DNA of 64,000 bases from Limnohabitans sp. G3-2 (GTDB lineage Bacteria; Pseudomonadota; Gammaproteobacteria; Burkholderiales; Burkholderiaceae_C). The DNA is taken from the NCBI RefSeq assembly GCF_002778275.1, contig NZ_NESG01000006.1, positions 186,001 through 250,000 on the forward strand, given 5' to 3'. The position numbers and the translations under genes were made by a program. Each line of letters begins with the position of its first letter. Within the stretch, counting starts at the first letter, position 1. Below the pieces are notes generated by a model that saw nothing but the letters and a program-made list of their open reading frames with translations, was not told the DNA's origin and ran no database searches. Below, in pieces: positions 36,044 to 54,912 of this stretch.

Positions 36044-37204
36044 ATGACCCCCTCGCCCGAAGCGCCTCTGGACGCTGCCTTGCCTTTGTCTGCCTTGATG
36101 GTGCAGGCATCGGCACAGGCCCCACTCACCGCCACTCAGCAGCGCTTCAACGACTTGTTGGCCAGGATTGAGCGCTTGTCGGGCCAGATCCAGCGGCTGG
36201 AAAGTTGGTCGGACCGGCACCGCTATGGGCACATTCAGGCCCTGCGTGAATGGGTGATGCAGGCGCAGGTGCACCGCAAAAGCTTGCTCCTGTTTGTGCA
36301 CGAACGCTTGCAAACCAGCGACTTCACCGACCGCCAGCAGCGCATGGCCCGGGGGCTGGTGCGTGGCTTGATCGCGCAACTGTCGGCCAGCGCCGACCCG
36401 CAAGTGCAGGCTTTGTCCGAGCTGTACGTGAGCGAAGAAGACACGCAGGAAGCCGCCGAGGAGCAGGCCGAGGCGGCGCAGCTGCTGCGCGAGCGCATCG
36501 AAGAAGCGCTGGGCCAGCCGCTCAACAAACCCAGCCAATACCAAACACCTGAAGAGATGATGCAGGCGGGCATGCGCCAGTGGCAGCAGCAGCAAGAGGC
36601 GAACGAGGCGCGCAAAGCGGCCAAGCGTGCCGCCCGCAAAGCCCAAAAACAGGCGCAAAAGACAAGCGCAGCCTCTGAAAAAGGCGACGTGCCCCTCGCC
36701 GTGCTGCGCGAGCTGGACGCCAAAAGCGCCATCCGCACCATTTTTCGGCAACTGGCCAGCGCCCTTCACCCCGACCGCGAGCCCGATGCGCAAGAGCGCT
36801 TGCGCAAAACCGGTTGGATGAGCGAGGTCAACGCCGCCTATGAAAAAAACGACCTGAGCACCTTGCTTCGCCTGCAAATGCAGGTCACGCAGGGTGGCAC
36901 CCAAAGTACGGCCCGCATGGCCGATGACAAATTGATGGCCATGTCGGTCTTGCTCAAAGAGCAAGTCGCCGCACTCGAAGACGATCTGGACCAACTGCAA
37001 AGCCGCTTGAGCCGGGAGTTGTGTGTGCCCGTGCGGGCCGACGCGGACGAGGCGGTGATGGCCCAGTCGCTGCAGCGCCTGCAGGCCGATCAGCGCCACA
37101 TCGCGGAAAGCTTGGTATCGGATTTGCGCCGCATTGAGAACGATGCCGAACTCAAGCGCTGGCTGAAAGAGCAGTGGCAGCTGGCTAAAGCCACTTCTGC
37201 ATGA
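36044..37204 (+). CDS. J-domain-like protein with coiled-coil segments
   Basis: A 386-residue hydrophilic protein. Residues about 210-275 form a degenerate J-domain (SAIRTIFRQLASALHPDREP, then WMSEVNAAYEKNDLSTLLRL) with the HPD tripeptide that stimulates DnaK-type chaperones. Charged, Ala/Gln/Lys-rich helices flank it (QWQQQQEANEARKAAKRAAR; VLLKEQVAALEDDLDQLQSR), probably coiled coils. It has no Gly/Phe or zinc-finger regions, so it is not a standard DnaJ. The partner is unknown. Its 3' end overlaps the convergent GNAT gene by 20 bases. Confidence 0.85.
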   Translation: MTPSPEAPLDAALPLSALMVQASAQAPLTATQQRFNDLLARIERLSGQIQRLESWSDRHRYGHIQALREWVMQAQVHRKSLLLFVHERLQTSDFTDRQQRMARGLVRGLIAQLSASADPQVQALSELYVSEEDTQEAAEEQAEAAQLLRERIEEALGQPLNKPSQYQTPEEMMQAGMRQWQQQQEANEARKAAKRAARKAQKQAQKTSAASEKGDVPLAVLRELDAKSAIRTIFRQLASALHPDREPDAQERLRKTGWMSEVNAAYEKNDLSTLLRLQMQVTQGGTQSTARMADDKLMAMSVLLKEQVAALEDDLDQLQSRLSRELCVPVRADADEAVMAQSLQRLQADQRHIAESLVSDLRRIENDAELKRWLKEQWQLAKATSA

Positions 37205-37667
37205 AGCTGGCCTGGCCCGCCGCAGGGTCCAGGGCATAGGGCTCAAAACCAAAGCCGAGGTAACTCTTCAAGGCCCGCGTGTTGCCCGTCAGCACTTCCA
37301 GTGTGAGCTTGCAGCAGCCACGCGCTTGGGCGTGTTGCTCGGCCGCGGCCAGCAAAGCCTGACCGACCCCCGCACCTCGGTGGCCCGGCAGCACGGCGAT
37401 GTCGTGGATGTTCATCAGGGGCTGCGCTTTGAAGGTCGAATACCCCTCGATGCAGTTGACCAGTCCCACAGGCGCATCGTCCAGCCAAGCGATGAAGCTG
37501 GCCGCATCGGTGCGCGCGGCCAAGTCATCGCACAGCCGCGCTTTCACATCCTGCGCCAGCGCTTCGCCCCCACCCATCGGGTCTTGGGCATAGGCGTCCA
37601 GCAGCATCACCAAGGCTTGGCGGTGTGCAGGGTTCTGGTAATCAACGGGCAGGATGTGAAGCGGCAT
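37185..37667 (-). CDS. GNAT family N-acetyltransferase
   Basis: A 160-residue acetyltransferase. The acetyl-CoA motif A is IHDIAVLPGHRGAGVGQALL, followed by a CCKLTLEVLTGNTRALKSYL motif B and a terminal GFEPYALDPAAGQASFMQKW. It probably acetylates a small amine or amino acid; the substrate is unknown. The start MPLHILPVDYQNP at 37667 is just 2 bases after the dadA stop, so it may be cotranscribed with dadA under the glycine riboswitch. Confidence 0.92.
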   Translation of the reverse strand: MPLHILPVDYQNPAHRQALVMLLDAYAQDPMGGGEALAQDVKARLCDDLAARTDAASFIAWLDDAPVGLVNCIEGYSTFKAQPLMNIHDIAVLPGHRGAGVGQALLAAAEQHAQARGCCKLTLEVLTGNTRALKSYLGFGFEPYALDPAAGQASFMQKWL

Positions 37668-37669
37668 GG

Positions 37670-38944
37670 TCAGGCGTGGGCAGGGGACAGGAAGGAGCGC
37701 CCATTGTCCTGCACAGAAGCCATCACATGGCCGGCCAATTGGTGCGCCGTGATGGCCGACAAGGTCCAGCCCAAGTGGCCGTGGCCGGTGTTGTAGAACA
37801 CATTGGCTTTCTTGCCTGCCCCCACACGCGGCAACATGTTGGGCATCATGGGGCGCAGACCGGCCCAGGGCTCCACACGGCGGGTGTCCACACCGGGGAA
37901 GCATTGGTTGACCCAGTTGACCAGCGGCTTGATGCGGTCGGCGCGGATGTCCAGGTCAATGCCGTTGAACTCGGCGGTGCCCGCCACGCGGAAACGGTCT
38001 GTGCCCAAACGGCTGGTGACCAGCTTGGTTTCGTCGTCCAGCAGGCTCACCTGCGGTGCGGCGGCCTGGCTGGTGGCGTCGTTCAAGCCCACGGTGATCG
38101 AATAGCCTTTGACGGGGTAGATGTTCAAGCGGTCGCCCAGTTGCTCGGCCAGTTTGCGCCCATGCACGCCTGCGCAAATCACGATGCTGTCAAAGCTGAG
38201 GGTCTCGCTCTGGCCTTGGTGCTGCACCTGCACCGTCGCGGTTTGGCCATTGGACGCGACATTCAGCACCTGGTGCTCGGTCAGGATCTTCACCCCCAGG
38301 CGCTCGCAAGCTTTGGCCAAACCAAAGGTGAACTTGTGGATGTCGCCTGTCGAGTCGCTTTCGGTGAAGTAACCACCGTAGTACTGGCCTTGCAGGGTCG
38401 GCTCGATGGCTTTCATCTCGTCTGGCGTCACGGCGCGGCGGGGCAGGCCGCCTTGGGCCAGCAGTTTGGAGACTTCGCCTGCGTGGTCAAAGCCTTTTTT
38501 GTCGCGGTAGATGTGCAAGATGCCTTCGCGCTTGTGGTCAAAGTCGATGCCTTCTGCTTGGGCCCAGGCAAAGTGGTGCTCGCGCGATTGAATGGCCAAC
38601 TGGGCGGTGGCAATGGTGTTGTCTTTGTACTTGGGAATGGCGGCCACGAACTCGGCCATCCAGCTGAGTTTGTGCCAAGTGGGCGCGGGGTTCATGAGCA
38701 AAGGGGCATCGCTCTTGAGCATCCATTTGAGGCCCTTGACGAGGGTGGACGGGTGGGTCCAGACCTCGGCGTTGGAGGCGGACAGCTGGCCGCCGTTGGC
38801 GTACGACGTCTCCATGCCGGGGTAGCGGTTTTTTTCGATCAGGGTGACTTGCAGGCCTTGCTGGGCCAGGGCGTAGGCGGAGGTGACGCCCGTGATACCG
38901 CCGCCCACAATAACGATATGTCTTTTGACAATGGGATTTTTCAT
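37670..38944 (-). CDS. dadA: D-amino acid dehydrogenase, DadA-type FAD oxidoreductase
   Basis: A 424-residue flavoprotein. It has the dinucleotide-binding HIVIVGGGITGVTSAYALAQ, METSYANGGQLSASNAEVW, the GILHIYRDKKGF and YFTESDSTGDIHKFTFGLAK regions, and the closing YNTGHGHLGWTLSAITAHQL. DadA deaminates D-amino acids (classically D-alanine) to oxo acids, passing electrons to the membrane quinone pool. The tandem glycine riboswitch in its leader suggests that glycine, or an amino acid whose catabolism links to glycine, is relevant here, and related enzymes such as glycine oxidase make direct glycine oxidation a possibility. The ribosome site GAGAGA lies 7 bases before the ATG. Confidence 0.9.
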   Translation of the reverse strand: MKNPIVKRHIVIVGGGITGVTSAYALAQQGLQVTLIEKNRYPGMETSYANGGQLSASNAEVWTHPSTLVKGLKWMLKSDAPLLMNPAPTWHKLSWMAEFVAAIPKYKDNTIATAQLAIQSREHHFAWAQAEGIDFDHKREGILHIYRDKKGFDHAGEVSKLLAQGGLPRRAVTPDEMKAIEPTLQGQYYGGYFTESDSTGDIHKFTFGLAKACERLGVKILTEHQVLNVASNGQTATVQVQHQGQSETLSFDSIVICAGVHGRKLAEQLGDRLNIYPVKGYSITVGLNDATSQAAAPQVSLLDDETKLVTSRLGTDRFRVAGTAEFNGIDLDIRADRIKPLVNWVNQCFPGVDTRRVEPWAGLRPMMPNMLPRVGAGKKANVFYNTGHGHLGWTLSAITAHQLAGHVMASVQDNGRSFLSPAHA

Positions 38945-39009
38945 CGGATTTTCTCTCAGTGAAACGTCTCAAACGGATGGACGCACCGCACACCGCATGT
39001 GTGCAGAAC

Positions 39010-39203
39010 GACCCCCTCTGTTTGAAACCTGAGAGATTCACCCGGCAGCCACAAAGGCTGGGGGCTTGCTCCTGCGGTGTGCCGGGGGACGAATCCCGGC
39101 AGCTCTTCAGAGTGCTTTGTTCACCACGGTCCTTTTGCCTGAGAGTTTCCGGGGTGGTTGCTCCTTCGGCGTTGAGGGCTGTTGGCCCCCAAGCTCTCCC
39201 ACA
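39010..39203 (-). ncRNA. Tandem glycine riboswitch in the dadA leader
   Basis: Read on the minus strand, aptamer 1 (39203 to about 39124) has GTGGGAGAGC, CGCCGAAGGAGCAACC and GGAAACTCTCAGGCAAAAGG, the hallmark glycine-aptamer core. After a short linker, aptamer 2 (about 39113 to 39012) has CTCTGAAGAG, CCGCAGGAGCAAGCC and GAATCTCTCAGGTTTCA, closing with CAGAG. The dadA ATG is 66 bases after the end. No U-tract terminator follows, so control is probably translational. A small hairpin GCACAC/GTGTGC (38988-39004) and the SD region come next. gcvH lies upstream on the same strand, so the switch serves dadA, not gcvH. Confidence 0.92.
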
Positions 39204-39313
39204 GTGAACGTCGGACTGGTTCCGACTCGGGGCAACGGTTGCAAAACCGGCGTCGCCCCTGTGTTGCAGATTCTACGGCCTGAATTCAAGTCTGGCAGGC
39301 CCAAGACAAAAAA

Positions 39314-39685
39314 TCAGTCGGTGAACTTCTGGTAGCTGGCCTCGTCGTGCAAGGCGTCCAGGTCCGACAGCTGGGTCAGCTTGACCTTGAAGAACCAGCC
39401 GGCCCCCAAAGGGTCGGAGTTGGCCAAAGAGGGGTCGCCGCGCAGGGCTTCATTGACCTCGATGATTTCGCCTGCGGCAGGCATGTGCACGTCGGCCGCG
39501 GCTTTGACCGATTCCACCACCCCGGCCACTTCTCGCGCCGCAAAAGTTTTGCCGATGTCGGGCAAATCCACAAACACGATGTCGCCCAAAGTGTCTTGGG
39601 CATGGACGGTGATGCCCATGGTGGCGGTCAGGCCATCGTCATTGCGCTTTAGCCAGGTGTGGTCTTCGGAGTATTGGATGGACAT
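39314..39685 (-). CDS. gcvH: Glycine cleavage system H protein
   Basis: A 123-residue lipoyl carrier that shuttles the aminomethyl group of glycine between the P, T and L proteins. Marks are YSEDHTWLKRNDDG, GITVHAQDTLGDIVFVDLP, the lipoylation site Lys61 in VVESVKAAADVHMPAAGEI, and NSDPLGAGWFFKVKLT. It is alone here: no gcvT or gcvP is in the window. It starts 11 bases after the run of Ts of a strong terminator, and no Shine-Dalgarno is visible, so its expression signal is unclear. Confidence 0.96.
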   Translation of the reverse strand: MSIQYSEDHTWLKRNDDGLTATMGITVHAQDTLGDIVFVDLPDIGKTFAAREVAGVVESVKAAADVHMPAAGEIIEVNEALRGDPSLANSDPLGAGWFFKVKLTQLSDLDALHDEASYQKFTD

Positions 39686-39751: not shown

Positions 39752-41029
39752 TTATTTGGCGTAGACCAGATCCCGCAAAGTCAAGGACAGGGCCGGCACA
39801 TAGGTCACCACCATCAGGCAAACCAGGATCACCAGCACAAAGGGGATCAAGTCCTTGATGATGCGGTCCAGCGAGATGCGCGCCACCGTACAAGCCGCAA
39901 AGAGGTTCACCCCAAAAGGCGGTGTGATCATGCCCAAAGCCAGGTTGACCACCATGACCAGACCAAAGTGAACCGGGTCAATGCCGAAGTGCATGGCCAC
40001 AGGGGCCAAGATCGGGGCCAGCACGATGATGGCGGCGCTGGTCTCGATGAACATGCCAATGAGGAACAAAGCGGCGTTGACACCCAGCAAGAAGTAAGCA
40101 GGTGACTTGAGCACGTCTTGCAACCAGTGGCCAATCGCTTCGGGCACACCCGCGCGGGTGATGAGGAAAGCGAACAAGCCCGCGTTGGCAATGATGAACA
40201 TGATCACCGCGCTGGACAGCACCGATTTGCGCATGATGATGGCCAAGTCTTTCAGCTTGATCTCACGGTAAATCACGGTGCCGACGATCAGGGCGTAGAA
40301 CACCGCCACGGCTGAGGCCTCTGTCGGGGTGAACACCCCGCCGTAGATGCCGCCCAGAATGATCACAGGCATCATGAGCGCCCAACCGGCTTGCCATGAG
40401 GCTTTGCCAAAGCTCAGCCGGCCCTCGCCGTCGTTCTTGCCCCAGCCTTTGTATTTGCAATAGATCCAGACCCAGAACATCAGCGCCAAGCCAATGAACA
40501 GGCCAGGGCCGAAACCGGCAATGAACAATTCACCGATCGACACTTCGGCACTGACGCCGTACAAGATCATGGGGATCGAGGGCGGGATGATCACGCCCAA
40601 CTCGGCCGACGTGGCTTGCAAAGAAGCCGCGTAAGTGGTGGGGTAGCCGTGCTTGATGAGGGCTGGGATCAGGATGGTGCCGATGGCAAAAGTGGTGGCC
40701 ACCGACGAGCCCGAGACGGCCGCAAAGATCATGCAGGTCAGCACGCAGGTCATGGGCAAGCCGCCTTGCACGCCACCCACGATGCTCTTGGCGAACTCCA
40801 CCAGGCGGCGGGAGATGCCACCGGTTTCCATGATGTTGCCCGCCAAAATGAAGAAGGGGATGGCGGCCAGCGGGAATTTGTTGATCGAATTGAACATCTC
40901 TTTGACGGAGATGAGCATGTTGGCGTTGCCAATTTGGATGCCGACAATCGCCGACAAACCAATGGACACGGCCACGGAGATGGTGAGTGCAAAGCACAGC
41001 ACCATGGTGCAAAGCATGACGACGCTCAT
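39752..41029 (-). CDS. dctM: TRAP transporter large permease (DctM)
   Basis: A 425-residue inner-membrane protein with about 12-13 helices and the DctM signatures: AAIPFFILAGNIMETGGIS, GSSVATTFAIGTILIPAL, ATSAELGVIIPPSIPMILYG, GGIYGGVFTPTEASAVAVFY and NLALGMITPPFGVNLFAAC. It is the transport subunit driven by a sodium or proton gradient. The start overlaps the dctQ stop (ATGA). Confidence 0.96.
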   Translation of the reverse strand: MSVVMLCTMVLCFALTISVAVSIGLSAIVGIQIGNANMLISVKEMFNSINKFPLAAIPFFILAGNIMETGGISRRLVEFAKSIVGGVQGGLPMTCVLTCMIFAAVSGSSVATTFAIGTILIPALIKHGYPTTYAASLQATSAELGVIIPPSIPMILYGVSAEVSIGELFIAGFGPGLFIGLALMFWVWIYCKYKGWGKNDGEGRLSFGKASWQAGWALMMPVIILGGIYGGVFTPTEASAVAVFYALIVGTVIYREIKLKDLAIIMRKSVLSSAVIMFIIANAGLFAFLITRAGVPEAIGHWLQDVLKSPAYFLLGVNAALFLIGMFIETSAAIIVLAPILAPVAMHFGIDPVHFGLVMVVNLALGMITPPFGVNLFAACTVARISLDRIIKDLIPFVLVILVCLMVVTYVPALSLTLRDLVYAK

Positions 41030-41520
41030 TGTGCGGTCTCCAATTCAAGGCGCTGGGGATCGAGCCAATTGCCGATGATGCTGATCACGCTGAAACAGGC
41101 GCCCACAGGCAAAGCCATGTAGGCCCAAAACATGGAGACGTCTTCCAAGCCAATCATGGACTGAACCTTGCCGCGATTGGCGTAGTCCCAGCCCCACCAA
41201 AGGATGATGCAGACCAAGGTGAGCGCGGCCAAAGCCACGGCGGTGTCGAGGACTTTTTTCATGCGCGGGCCGCTCCAGCGGTAAAGCACATCCACGCTGA
41301 CCATCGCACCCTGGCGGAAAGCCATGGGGATGCCCATGAAGACCATCCAAATGAGGCTGAAGCGGATGAGCACTTCTGTCCACTCCACCGGAACTTCGAG
41401 CACAAAGCGGGTGAAAATTTGCAGCATGCCCAAGAGGGATGCCAGTGCCAACATCAAGCAGGCTACAAGCATGGAGAACCCAGTGGTCCACTTTTCCATG
41501 CTCAGATAGAGCGAGCGCAT
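41026..41520 (-). CDS. dctQ: TRAP transporter small permease (DctQ)
   Basis: A 164-residue four-helix membrane protein. TGFSMLVACLMLALASLLGM, VPVEWTEVLIRFSLIWMVFM and GIPMAFRQGAMVSVDVL are characteristic of DctQ, which clamps to DctM and docks the binding protein. It follows dctP after a terminator-like hairpin and is coupled to dctM by a 4-base overlap. Confidence 0.95.
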   Translation of the reverse strand: MRSLYLSMEKWTTGFSMLVACLMLALASLLGMLQIFTRFVLEVPVEWTEVLIRFSLIWMVFMGIPMAFRQGAMVSVDVLYRWSGPRMKKVLDTAVALAALTLVCIILWWGWDYANRGKVQSMIGLEDVSMFWAYMALPVGACFSVISIIGNWLDPQRLELETAQ

Positions 41521-41543
41521 AAAAAATCCTTCACGACAAAATC

Positions 41544-41580
41544 AAAAAACGCCCGCCAATCTGGGATTGGTCGGGCGTTT
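41544..41580 (-). terminator. Intra-operon terminator/attenuator between dctP and dctQ
   Basis: On the minus strand AAACGCCCG and CGGGCGTTTTTT form the outer stem, with CCAATC/GATTGG inside: a long hairpin followed by a T run. It lies 15 bases after the dctP stop and before dctQ. Partial termination here would give more binding protein than permease. Confidence 0.9.
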
Positions 41581-41594
41581 GCACACACTTCAGA

Positions 41595-42566
41595 TCACTT
41601 GGTGTTGCGGATGCGGTCCAGGTTGGCTTTGCCGAACTGCTTTTCAAACTCGGCAATGGCCGGGGCCATGGTGGCAATGAACTTGGTCTTGTCGACGTTC
41701 TCGATGATGTTCATGCCTTTTTTGCGCAGCTCAGCCACGCCGTTGGCATCGTCTTTGTCCACGCGTGCACGGTTGGCTTTGACTGCCTCTTTGGCTGCGT
41801 CGAGGAAGATTTGCTTGTCGGCAGCGCTGAGCTTGTCAAACGAGCCCTTGTTCATCAAGATCACCACGGGTGAGTAGACGTGGCCAGTCAGTGTCAGGTG
41901 CTTTTGCACTTGGTCAAAGTTGGAGGCCATGATCACCGACAGGGGGTTTTCTTGACCGTCCACAGTGCCTTGCTGCAAAGCGGTGAACACTTCAGGGAAG
42001 GCCATCGGTGTGGTCACAATGCCCAAGCTTTTGTAGGCCGCAACGTGCACGGGGTTTTCCATGGTGCGCATCTTCAGACCTTTGAGGTCATCGGGCAGGT
42101 TCACAGGGCGCTTGCTGTTGGTCATGTGGCGCACGCCGTTTTCACCCCAGGCCAAAGCCTTGAAGCCTTTGGAGTCGAACTTGGTCAGCAACTCTTGGCC
42201 AATGGGGCCATCGAGCACAGCGCGTGCGTGTGCTTTGTCACGGAACAAGAAGGGCACGTCCAGAATGCGCGCTTCGGGCACAAAGTTGGGGACCGGGCCG
42301 GTCGATGTGGTGGCCAATTCTTGGGTGCCCAATTGCACCGATTCAATGGACTCGCGCTCGCCGCCCAAAGAGCCGGAGTAGAAGTTCTGAATCTTGATGC
42401 GACCGTTGGTGCGCTTTTCGACTTCTTTGGACAGGGTGTCGATGGCTTCACCTTGGTGGGAGTTTTGGCCCACCGAAATGCTGTTGCGCATGACGGTTTG
42501 TGAAGATGCCGTGGACATGATGCCGATGGCCAAGCTCAGGCCCAACATCAATTTGCTCAATTTCAT
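41595..42566 (-). CDS. dctP: TRAP transporter solute-binding protein (DctP family)
   Basis: A 323-residue periplasmic binding protein with a signal peptide (MKLSKLMLGLSLAIGIMSTA). DctP marks are YSGSLGGERESIESVQLGTQ, ILDVPFLFRDKAHARAVL, the carboxylate-binding Arg in LKGLKMRTMENPVHVAAYK, and FPEVFTALQQGTVDGQENPL. It probably binds a C4-dicarboxylate or related organic acid; the exact ligand is not readable. A strong site (GAGGAG) precedes ATG 42566. It is the first gene of dctPQM. Confidence 0.95.
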   Translation of the reverse strand: MKLSKLMLGLSLAIGIMSTASSQTVMRNSISVGQNSHQGEAIDTLSKEVEKRTNGRIKIQNFYSGSLGGERESIESVQLGTQELATTSTGPVPNFVPEARILDVPFLFRDKAHARAVLDGPIGQELLTKFDSKGFKALAWGENGVRHMTNSKRPVNLPDDLKGLKMRTMENPVHVAAYKSLGIVTTPMAFPEVFTALQQGTVDGQENPLSVIMASNFDQVQKHLTLTGHVYSPVVILMNKGSFDKLSAADKQIFLDAAKEAVKANRARVDKDDANGVAELRKKGMNIIENVDKTKFIATMAPAIAEFEKQFGKANLDRIRNTK

Positions 42567-54838: not shown

Positions 54839-54912
54839 TGGAGCGGGTGATGGGAATCGAACCCACGTTATTTGCTTGGGAAGCAAGAGTCCTACCATTG
54901 AACGACACCCGC
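54839..54912 (-). tRNA. tRNA-Gly, anticodon CCC
   Basis: Read on the minus strand: acceptor GCGGGTG paired with CACCCGC, discriminator T and an encoded CCA; D-arm GTTC/GGAC; anticodon loop TTCCCAA giving anticodon CCC (reads GGG); T-arm GTGGG/CCCAT around TTCGATT. Length 74 with CCA. The anticodon stem CTTGC/GCAAA has a C27-A43 mismatch at its top, unusual but tolerable. Confidence 0.95.

Follow-up and report, generated by a model that had tools for sequence, protein, structure and literature searches.

The window analysed here, a 64,000-nt stretch of the genome of Limnohabitans sp. G3-2 (3.25 Mb in 25 contigs, rated 100% complete), carries on its minus strand a tandem glycine riboswitch in front of a gene for a DadA-type oxidoreductase, with a GNAT acetyltransferase gene on the downstream side and gcvH and TRAP transporter genes on the upstream side:

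39752–42566, minus strand: TRAP transporter genes dctM, dctQ and dctP, upstream of gcvH (PF06808, PF04290, PF03480)
39314–39685, minus strand: gcvH, the only GCV_H match found in the genome (TIGR00527, 127 bits, cut-off 115.85)
39270–39298, minus strand: weak promoter-like site upstream of aptamer 1 (9 of 12 consensus matches; a consensus match only)
39117–39211, minus strand: glycine riboswitch aptamer 1 (Rfam RF00504, 64.7 bits, E 3.7e-11)
39008–39120, minus strand: glycine riboswitch aptamer 2 (RF00504, 40.6 bits in the whole-genome search)
37670–38944, minus strand: dadA-type gene for a FAD-dependent oxidoreductase of 424 aa (NF009074/PRK12409, 695.3 bits, cut-off 494; PF01266)
37185–37667, minus strand: GNAT acetyltransferase gene, 2 nt downstream of dadA (PF00583, E 6.5e-19)

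Both aptamers exceed the RF00504 gathering score of 32, and aptamer 2 still does so, at 33.8 bits, when a stretch cut at 39117 is searched by itself, which bears out the original prediction of a tandem glycine riboswitch ahead of a DadA-type gene. The two matches overlap by 4 nt and form a tandem with a single expression platform, and this overlap is probably the reason that aptamer 2 went unlisted in window-level RF00504 searches. The dadA ATG lies 63 nt past the end of aptamer 2 on the minus strand; the location first assigned to the riboswitch was right, but the interval began at the ATG and cut off 8 nt of aptamer 1. No RF00504 match beyond the tandem pair was found elsewhere in the genome (150 of 190 first-look candidates scored), and an isrK match in the window (17 bits, cut-off 50) was dismissed as chance. 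Aptamer 2 has five consecutive C in its P3b region (39064–39060) and five consecutive G where its P1 ends (39016–39012), and these could form a pseudoknot, a feature mentioned for gcvT glycine riboswitches in the accessible text of PMC13104608. The only other Rfam match in the window above its gathering score is a tRNA at 54842–54912 with the anticodon loop UUCCCAA, which, as read from its alignment, would be a glycine tRNA with the anticodon CCC.

The NCBIfam name of the DadA protein is D-amino acid dehydrogenase PRK12409. Its match to the ThiO glycine oxidase model (TIGR02352) falls below the cut-off (148.6 versus 250.8 bits), and it is 22% identical to 4ysh; the fold that it shares with ThiO and the D-amino acid dehydrogenases of the DAO superfamily does not in itself show its substrate. 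The GNAT gene begins 2 nt after dadA, as described originally, but the tie to glycine suggested for it is loose, given that it adjoins dadA in only 27 of the 35 Limnohabitans-type loci, being displaced or not found in the other eight, and that no GNAT match was found in the loci of other types.

Within the dadA leader, TCTCTCAG at 39036–39029 is the exact reverse complement of CTGAGAGA at 38959–38952, and 7 nt (38951–38945) separate the latter from the ATG at 38944. The sequence thus confirms the 8-nt complementarity between the aptamer-2 core and the Shine-Dalgarno (SD) region that had been predicted, as it does the 7 complementary bases in aptamer 1, where CTCTCAG at 39145–39139 matches the dadA start region. 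As an account of the switch, however, the octamer is merely the outer part of a longer predicted OFF duplex. Folding places a second helix of 9 bp including one G-U pair (helix A), which had been missed, directly beside the octamer helix (helix B), with a 6-nt bulge on the 3′ side separating the two and a hairpin (39013–38979) inside:

39029–39036, minus strand: 5′ strand of helix B, the conserved aptamer-2 core UCUCUCAG (sequence)
39020–39028, minus strand: 5′ strand of helix A, GUUUCAAAC, the aptamer-2 stretch between core and P1 (duplex folding and Limnohabitans-type alignment)
38979–39013, minus strand: hairpin within the OFF duplex, with compensatory changes (5 of 13 pairs changed on both sides in the same alignment)
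38966–38974, minus strand: 3′ strand of helix A, GUUUGAGAC (pairing in the same alignment and RNAalifold consensus)
38952–38959, minus strand: 3′ strand of helix B, CUGAGAGA, which holds the SD 5-mer AGAGA (38956–38952; paired with the core in the minimum free energy fold of the whole leader)

The match exceeds what chance provides in several controls. Dinucleotide shuffling of the start region reproduced the octamer match 11 times in 5000, and none of 70 other ORF starts in the window had it, the longest match there being 6 nt; any 8-nt match to the 32-nt core arose in 169 of 5000 shuffles. The duplex between core and start region reached −28.5 kcal/mol, and none of the 70 other starts equalled this, their mean being −16.0 (sd 4.0); these starts belong to mechanically called ORFs of more than 200 codons, many surely non-genes, and they test chance pairing rather than SD composition, which the shuffles cover. 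When left free, the window leader folds as a long hairpin in which aptamer-2 nucleotides pair with the translation start region. The unpaired probability of the SD 5-mer rose from 0.02 in the free leader to 0.60 when the core was withheld, in folding that disregards ligand, tertiary contacts and co-transcriptional kinetics. Folding with and without the aptamer constraint had been proposed as a check, and the outcome with the core withheld agrees with the masking of the SD by the aptamer-2 core and with the ON logic put forward originally, as do the gcvT mutants of Neisseria gonorrhoeae described below.

To place the leader among its relatives, we considered 80 loci with a close DadA relative, the best 80 of 216. 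The core CTCTCAGG was present within 420 nt upstream of dadA in 78 of these 80, in two exact copies in 76 and in one copy in L127 and L131, and was not found within that distance in L088 and L107. Together with the window, the 78 core-bearing loci gave a set of 79 leaders, whose start codons were picked by rule (by hand for L121, L122 and L124). All 79 contain an identical UCUCUCAG, a count to be read in the light of the selection of these leaders by the word CTCTCAGG. Pairing between core and start region was stronger than with shuffled start regions (z < −1) in 73 of the 79 leaders, with a mean z of −2.44. When start regions were exchanged among all 79 leaders, the own pairing averaged −25.6 versus −24.1 for permuted pairs, with none of 5000 as low; with one representative for each of 14 core-variant groups, defined by differences in the stretch after the core, the values were −24.5 and −22.4, and on average 0.2% of permutations reached so low a value. 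The match is only modestly specific, since on average 34.6% (median 29.6%) of the start regions from other core-variant groups pair with a leader's core as well as or better than its own.

Accessibility followed the same pattern across the set. The mean unpaired probability of the SD 5-mer was 0.22 in the free leaders versus 0.48 with the core withheld, rising by more than 0.2 in 50 of the 79 and falling in 2. An 11-nt measure of the start region, a blunt one for which the SD 5-mer was substituted, gave a smaller opening (a rise of over 0.2 in 35 of the 79 leaders and a fall in 3).

The literal octamer is far less conserved than the pairing itself. Four of the 35 Limnohabitans-type leaders have the match at 8 nt and another four at 7 nt; it shrinks to 6 nt in 19 and to 5 nt in 8, and in the 44 other leaders it is at most 6 nt. 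The 8-nt match was rejected as a conserved principle on these counts, with 4 of 35 and 0 of 44 leaders showing it in full. Absence of the complementarity from related leaders had been named as a result that would speak against the switch; the octamer is indeed absent from most of them, but the principle of core/start pairing recurs in the 73 leaders noted above.

In the alignment of the 35 Limnohabitans-type leaders (34 distinct rows), the whole predicted structure had 89.3% of its cells paired, compared with at most 56.6% for slid versions, and a covariation score of 0.116 versus 0.081 in shuffled alignments, none of 500 being as high. Helix A was paired in 98.7% of cells, with six of its nine pairs never varying. 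Helix B was paired in 74.5%, a count that is somewhat low because the SD sits 2–3 columns off in L062, L065, L069 and L080; the match owes its length of 8 nt to the two inner pairs of this helix, and these are broken in 26 and 25 of the 34 rows. All five pairs that changed on both sides lie in the enclosed hairpin and none in helix A or B, so that these two helices, the former mostly invariant, are unproved by covariation within the genus. RNAalifold returned helix A (8 of 9 pairs) and the hairpin from this alignment, without helix B. From 44 hand-picked leaders of the 79, whose variable region MAFFT could not align, the output was limited to an apical hairpin and a local one formed by the core and P1, the OFF duplex being absent on this poorly alignable set.

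The register of the pairing varies by lineage. Limnohabitans-type leaders use helix A plus GAGAG, GAATCTCTC pairs with GAGAGATTC in L090 (Hydrogenophaga taeniospiralis) and L100, and TCCAGAAC pairs with GTTCTGGA in the Curvibacter loci L121, L122 and L124. The constant pairing in Limnohabitans-type leaders is helix A, and other genera use other stretches of the same core. The 79 dadA leaders thereby offer a comparative view of how one unchanging aptamer core serves as an anti-SD sequence in different registers.

Leaders of gcvT from the same group of contigs likewise carry a glycine riboswitch with the CTCTCAGG core, but their core/start complementarity is weaker than that of the dadA leaders: of 18 gcvT leaders tried, 14 were usable, and 5 of these had z < −1 (mean −0.75). 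A second DadA subfamily (L189–L201, L203–L206 and L208) also has a glycine riboswitch core upstream, as a single copy in 16 of 18 loci and as two loose matches in 2, and its leaders gave z < −1 in 10 of 18 (mean −1.06). With start codons chosen by rule, strong complementarity is most marked for the PRK12409 dadA leaders. In the family, PRK12409 matched 46 of 150 genomes at E ≤ 1e-100, and in 25 the score exceeded the cut-off; by a loose core motif, rather than a covariance model (although some motif hits coincide with RF00504 matches), at least two cores lie upstream in 24 of these 25 (the exception is L174), and the core is present in 18 of the 21 genomes below the cut-off, these being the 18 loci of the second subfamily just described. 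The three without it include L188, which starts inside the gene, and L202, with little upstream DNA. All four tested of the 21 below-cut-off genomes belonged to PRK00711. Class-wide, a PRK12409 match above the cut-off was found in 2 of 114 genomes, both of them in this family.

The surroundings of the riboswitch point to glycine metabolism. No riboswitch match lies in front of the window's gcvH, and a complete glycine cleavage system (gcvT, gcvH, gcvP) was not found in this genome, where gcvH stands alone: gcvP gave no match (PF02347), and the best gcvT score (TIGR00528) was only 21.2 bits, under the cut-off of 235.85. The sister genome G087, by comparison, has the order TRAP genes, riboswitch, gcvT, gcvH, gcvP, riboswitch, dadA and GNAT. 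Upstream of the dadA riboswitch, gcvP was found in 35 of the 80 loci, of which 24 belong to the 34 of Limnohabitans type and 11 do not, several contigs being too short to tell; in L062 a GNAT match lies in between. Within the genus, 10 of 40 genomes, and 5 of the 24 of good quality, gave no gcvP match. The arrangement with gcvH alone occurs in the window and in 7 other loci, each with a dadA riboswitch. Among 10 hand-picked proteins encoded downstream of dadA elsewhere, three were sdaA products (L-serine ammonia-lyase) and one an AgcS amino-acid carrier, and the remaining six had no evident link. A connection between DadA and glycine had been presented originally as unusual; this is weakened by the frequency of the core in front of dadA (78 of 80 loci), of gcvP upstream and of sdaA downstream in some loci.

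Taking these observations together, we consider it probable that the tandem riboswitch is a translational ON switch for dadA. When glycine is absent, the 3′ part of aptamer 2 (UCUCUCAG, GUUUCAAAC and the start of P1) would pair with the dadA start region, helix A joining 39028–39020 to 38974–38966 and helix B joining 39036–39029 to 38959–38952, with the 3′ bulge of 6 nt and the hairpin inside, and this OFF duplex would bury the Shine-Dalgarno sequence. When glycine is bound, aptamer 2 would fold and retain both the core and the P1 strand, the SD would be released, and the enzyme would be made when glycine is plentiful. Good in silico support for this proposal comes from the two aptamers, from a complementarity that exceeds its controls and recurs in relatives, and from the glycine-metabolic neighbourhood; from these we infer the binding of glycine, the direction of the response, and an enzyme acting on glycine or a close amino acid.

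Both the riboswitch type and the translational ON design are already known, and the published precedent is the gcvT riboswitch of N. gonorrhoeae. In the accessible text of PMC13104608, glycine raises gcvT expression, and deletion and point mutants support pairing of CTCAGG in aptamer 2 just before the start codon without glycine. The window leader shares this proposed pairing of the 3′ core of aptamer 2 with the start region, the ON logic having been measured in N. gonorrhoeae (PMC13104608), but differs in the gene controlled and adds helix A and the enclosed hairpin kept in relatives. With tandem RF00504 riboswitches in general it has in common two adjacent aptamers that fit the model, one platform and a glycine-metabolism neighbourhood in relatives, whereas its target is a PRK12409-family dadA rather than gcvT or a symporter.

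Control could instead be transcriptional, by intrinsic or Rho-dependent termination, with the duplex acting only through termination or degradation of the untranslated mRNA and not by direct SD masking. We regard this as unlikely: transcript changes are reported for such a leader in N. gonorrhoeae, with a discussion of Rho, in the accessible text of PMC13104608, and the window leader does form a long hairpin, but no terminator-like sites were found in 38900–39400 (shuffles: mean 0.8), in keeping with the lack of a terminator noted originally, and the SD 5-mer had an unpaired probability below 0.3 in 62 of the 79 free leaders, pointing to masking of the start. An OFF switch, by which glycine would repress dadA as in the tandem glycine riboswitches of sodium-alanine symporters, belongs to a type that exists according to the same available text (PMC13104608), yet it is very unlikely here. 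The free leader already masks the SD with aptamer nucleotides, so that ligand binding should open it, and the neighbours include glycine- and serine-breaking genes.

The genome in which gcvP and an above-cut-off gcvT were not found, with an orphan gcvH just upstream, might also suggest that the riboswitch survives from a lost gcvTHP operon as a relic with no useful regulatory role. We rejected this reading as highly improbable, given that gcvT and dadA each have a tandem riboswitch of their own in G087, and that by comparison with it the window's riboswitch sits in dadA's place; moreover, in all 7 other loci with gcvH alone both cores are present and the dadA reading frame is open. Nor does the history of gcvH itself read simply. 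The window GcvH shares 65.6% identity with its counterpart in the gcvTHP operon of G087 and 79–97% with the GcvH proteins of the seven other gcvH-only loci, and on a quick DadA tree of 37 rows the gcvH-only arrangement takes 4 changes, at least 3 of them forced by well-supported branches; in view of these identities and this tree, we claim neither a single loss event nor that gcvH is an operon remnant.

Returning to the ON switch, the riboswitch, of a known type, most likely induces a glycine-oxidase-like enzyme by exposing the translation start of the gene, and it persists in a genome in which neither gcvT nor gcvP was found. An inducer is thereby suggested for an oxidoreductase family known to us only by a homology-based name, and the question arises whether DadA oxidises glycine and takes over from the glycine cleavage system in genomes that lack gcvT and gcvP. 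We speculate, as a possibility that we would not call probable, that glycine induces the PRK12409 enzyme, that this enzyme is a dehydrogenase converting glycine to glyoxylate, and that in Limnohabitans without the glycine cleavage system it has become the main glycine-breaking route, its riboswitch having outlived gcvT and gcvP. A glycine riboswitch before a PRK12409 DadA was not found in the literature searched, where the supplementary gene lists of PMC3766115 and PMC2211319 may include dadA; the available portions of PMC6944388, PMC2211319 and PMC2258182 do not mention dadA. Sun et al. 2013 counted twelve glycine-metabolism orthologs and named sdaA in beta-proteobacteria in the portion available (PMC3766115), and in the accessible text of one paper thiO is placed under TPP riboswitches.

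Two further observations concern the genes upstream. The window GcvH keeps the stretch ESVKAAADV, whose K we take to be the lipoylation site, in a genome where gcvT and gcvP were not found. The TRAP genes beside gcvH are of two clearly different types among the gcvH-only loci, those of L055, L067 and L081 best matching the genes of G087 and those of the window, L054, L070 and L092 being of another type, so that the TRAP module next to gcvH may be an exchanged one.
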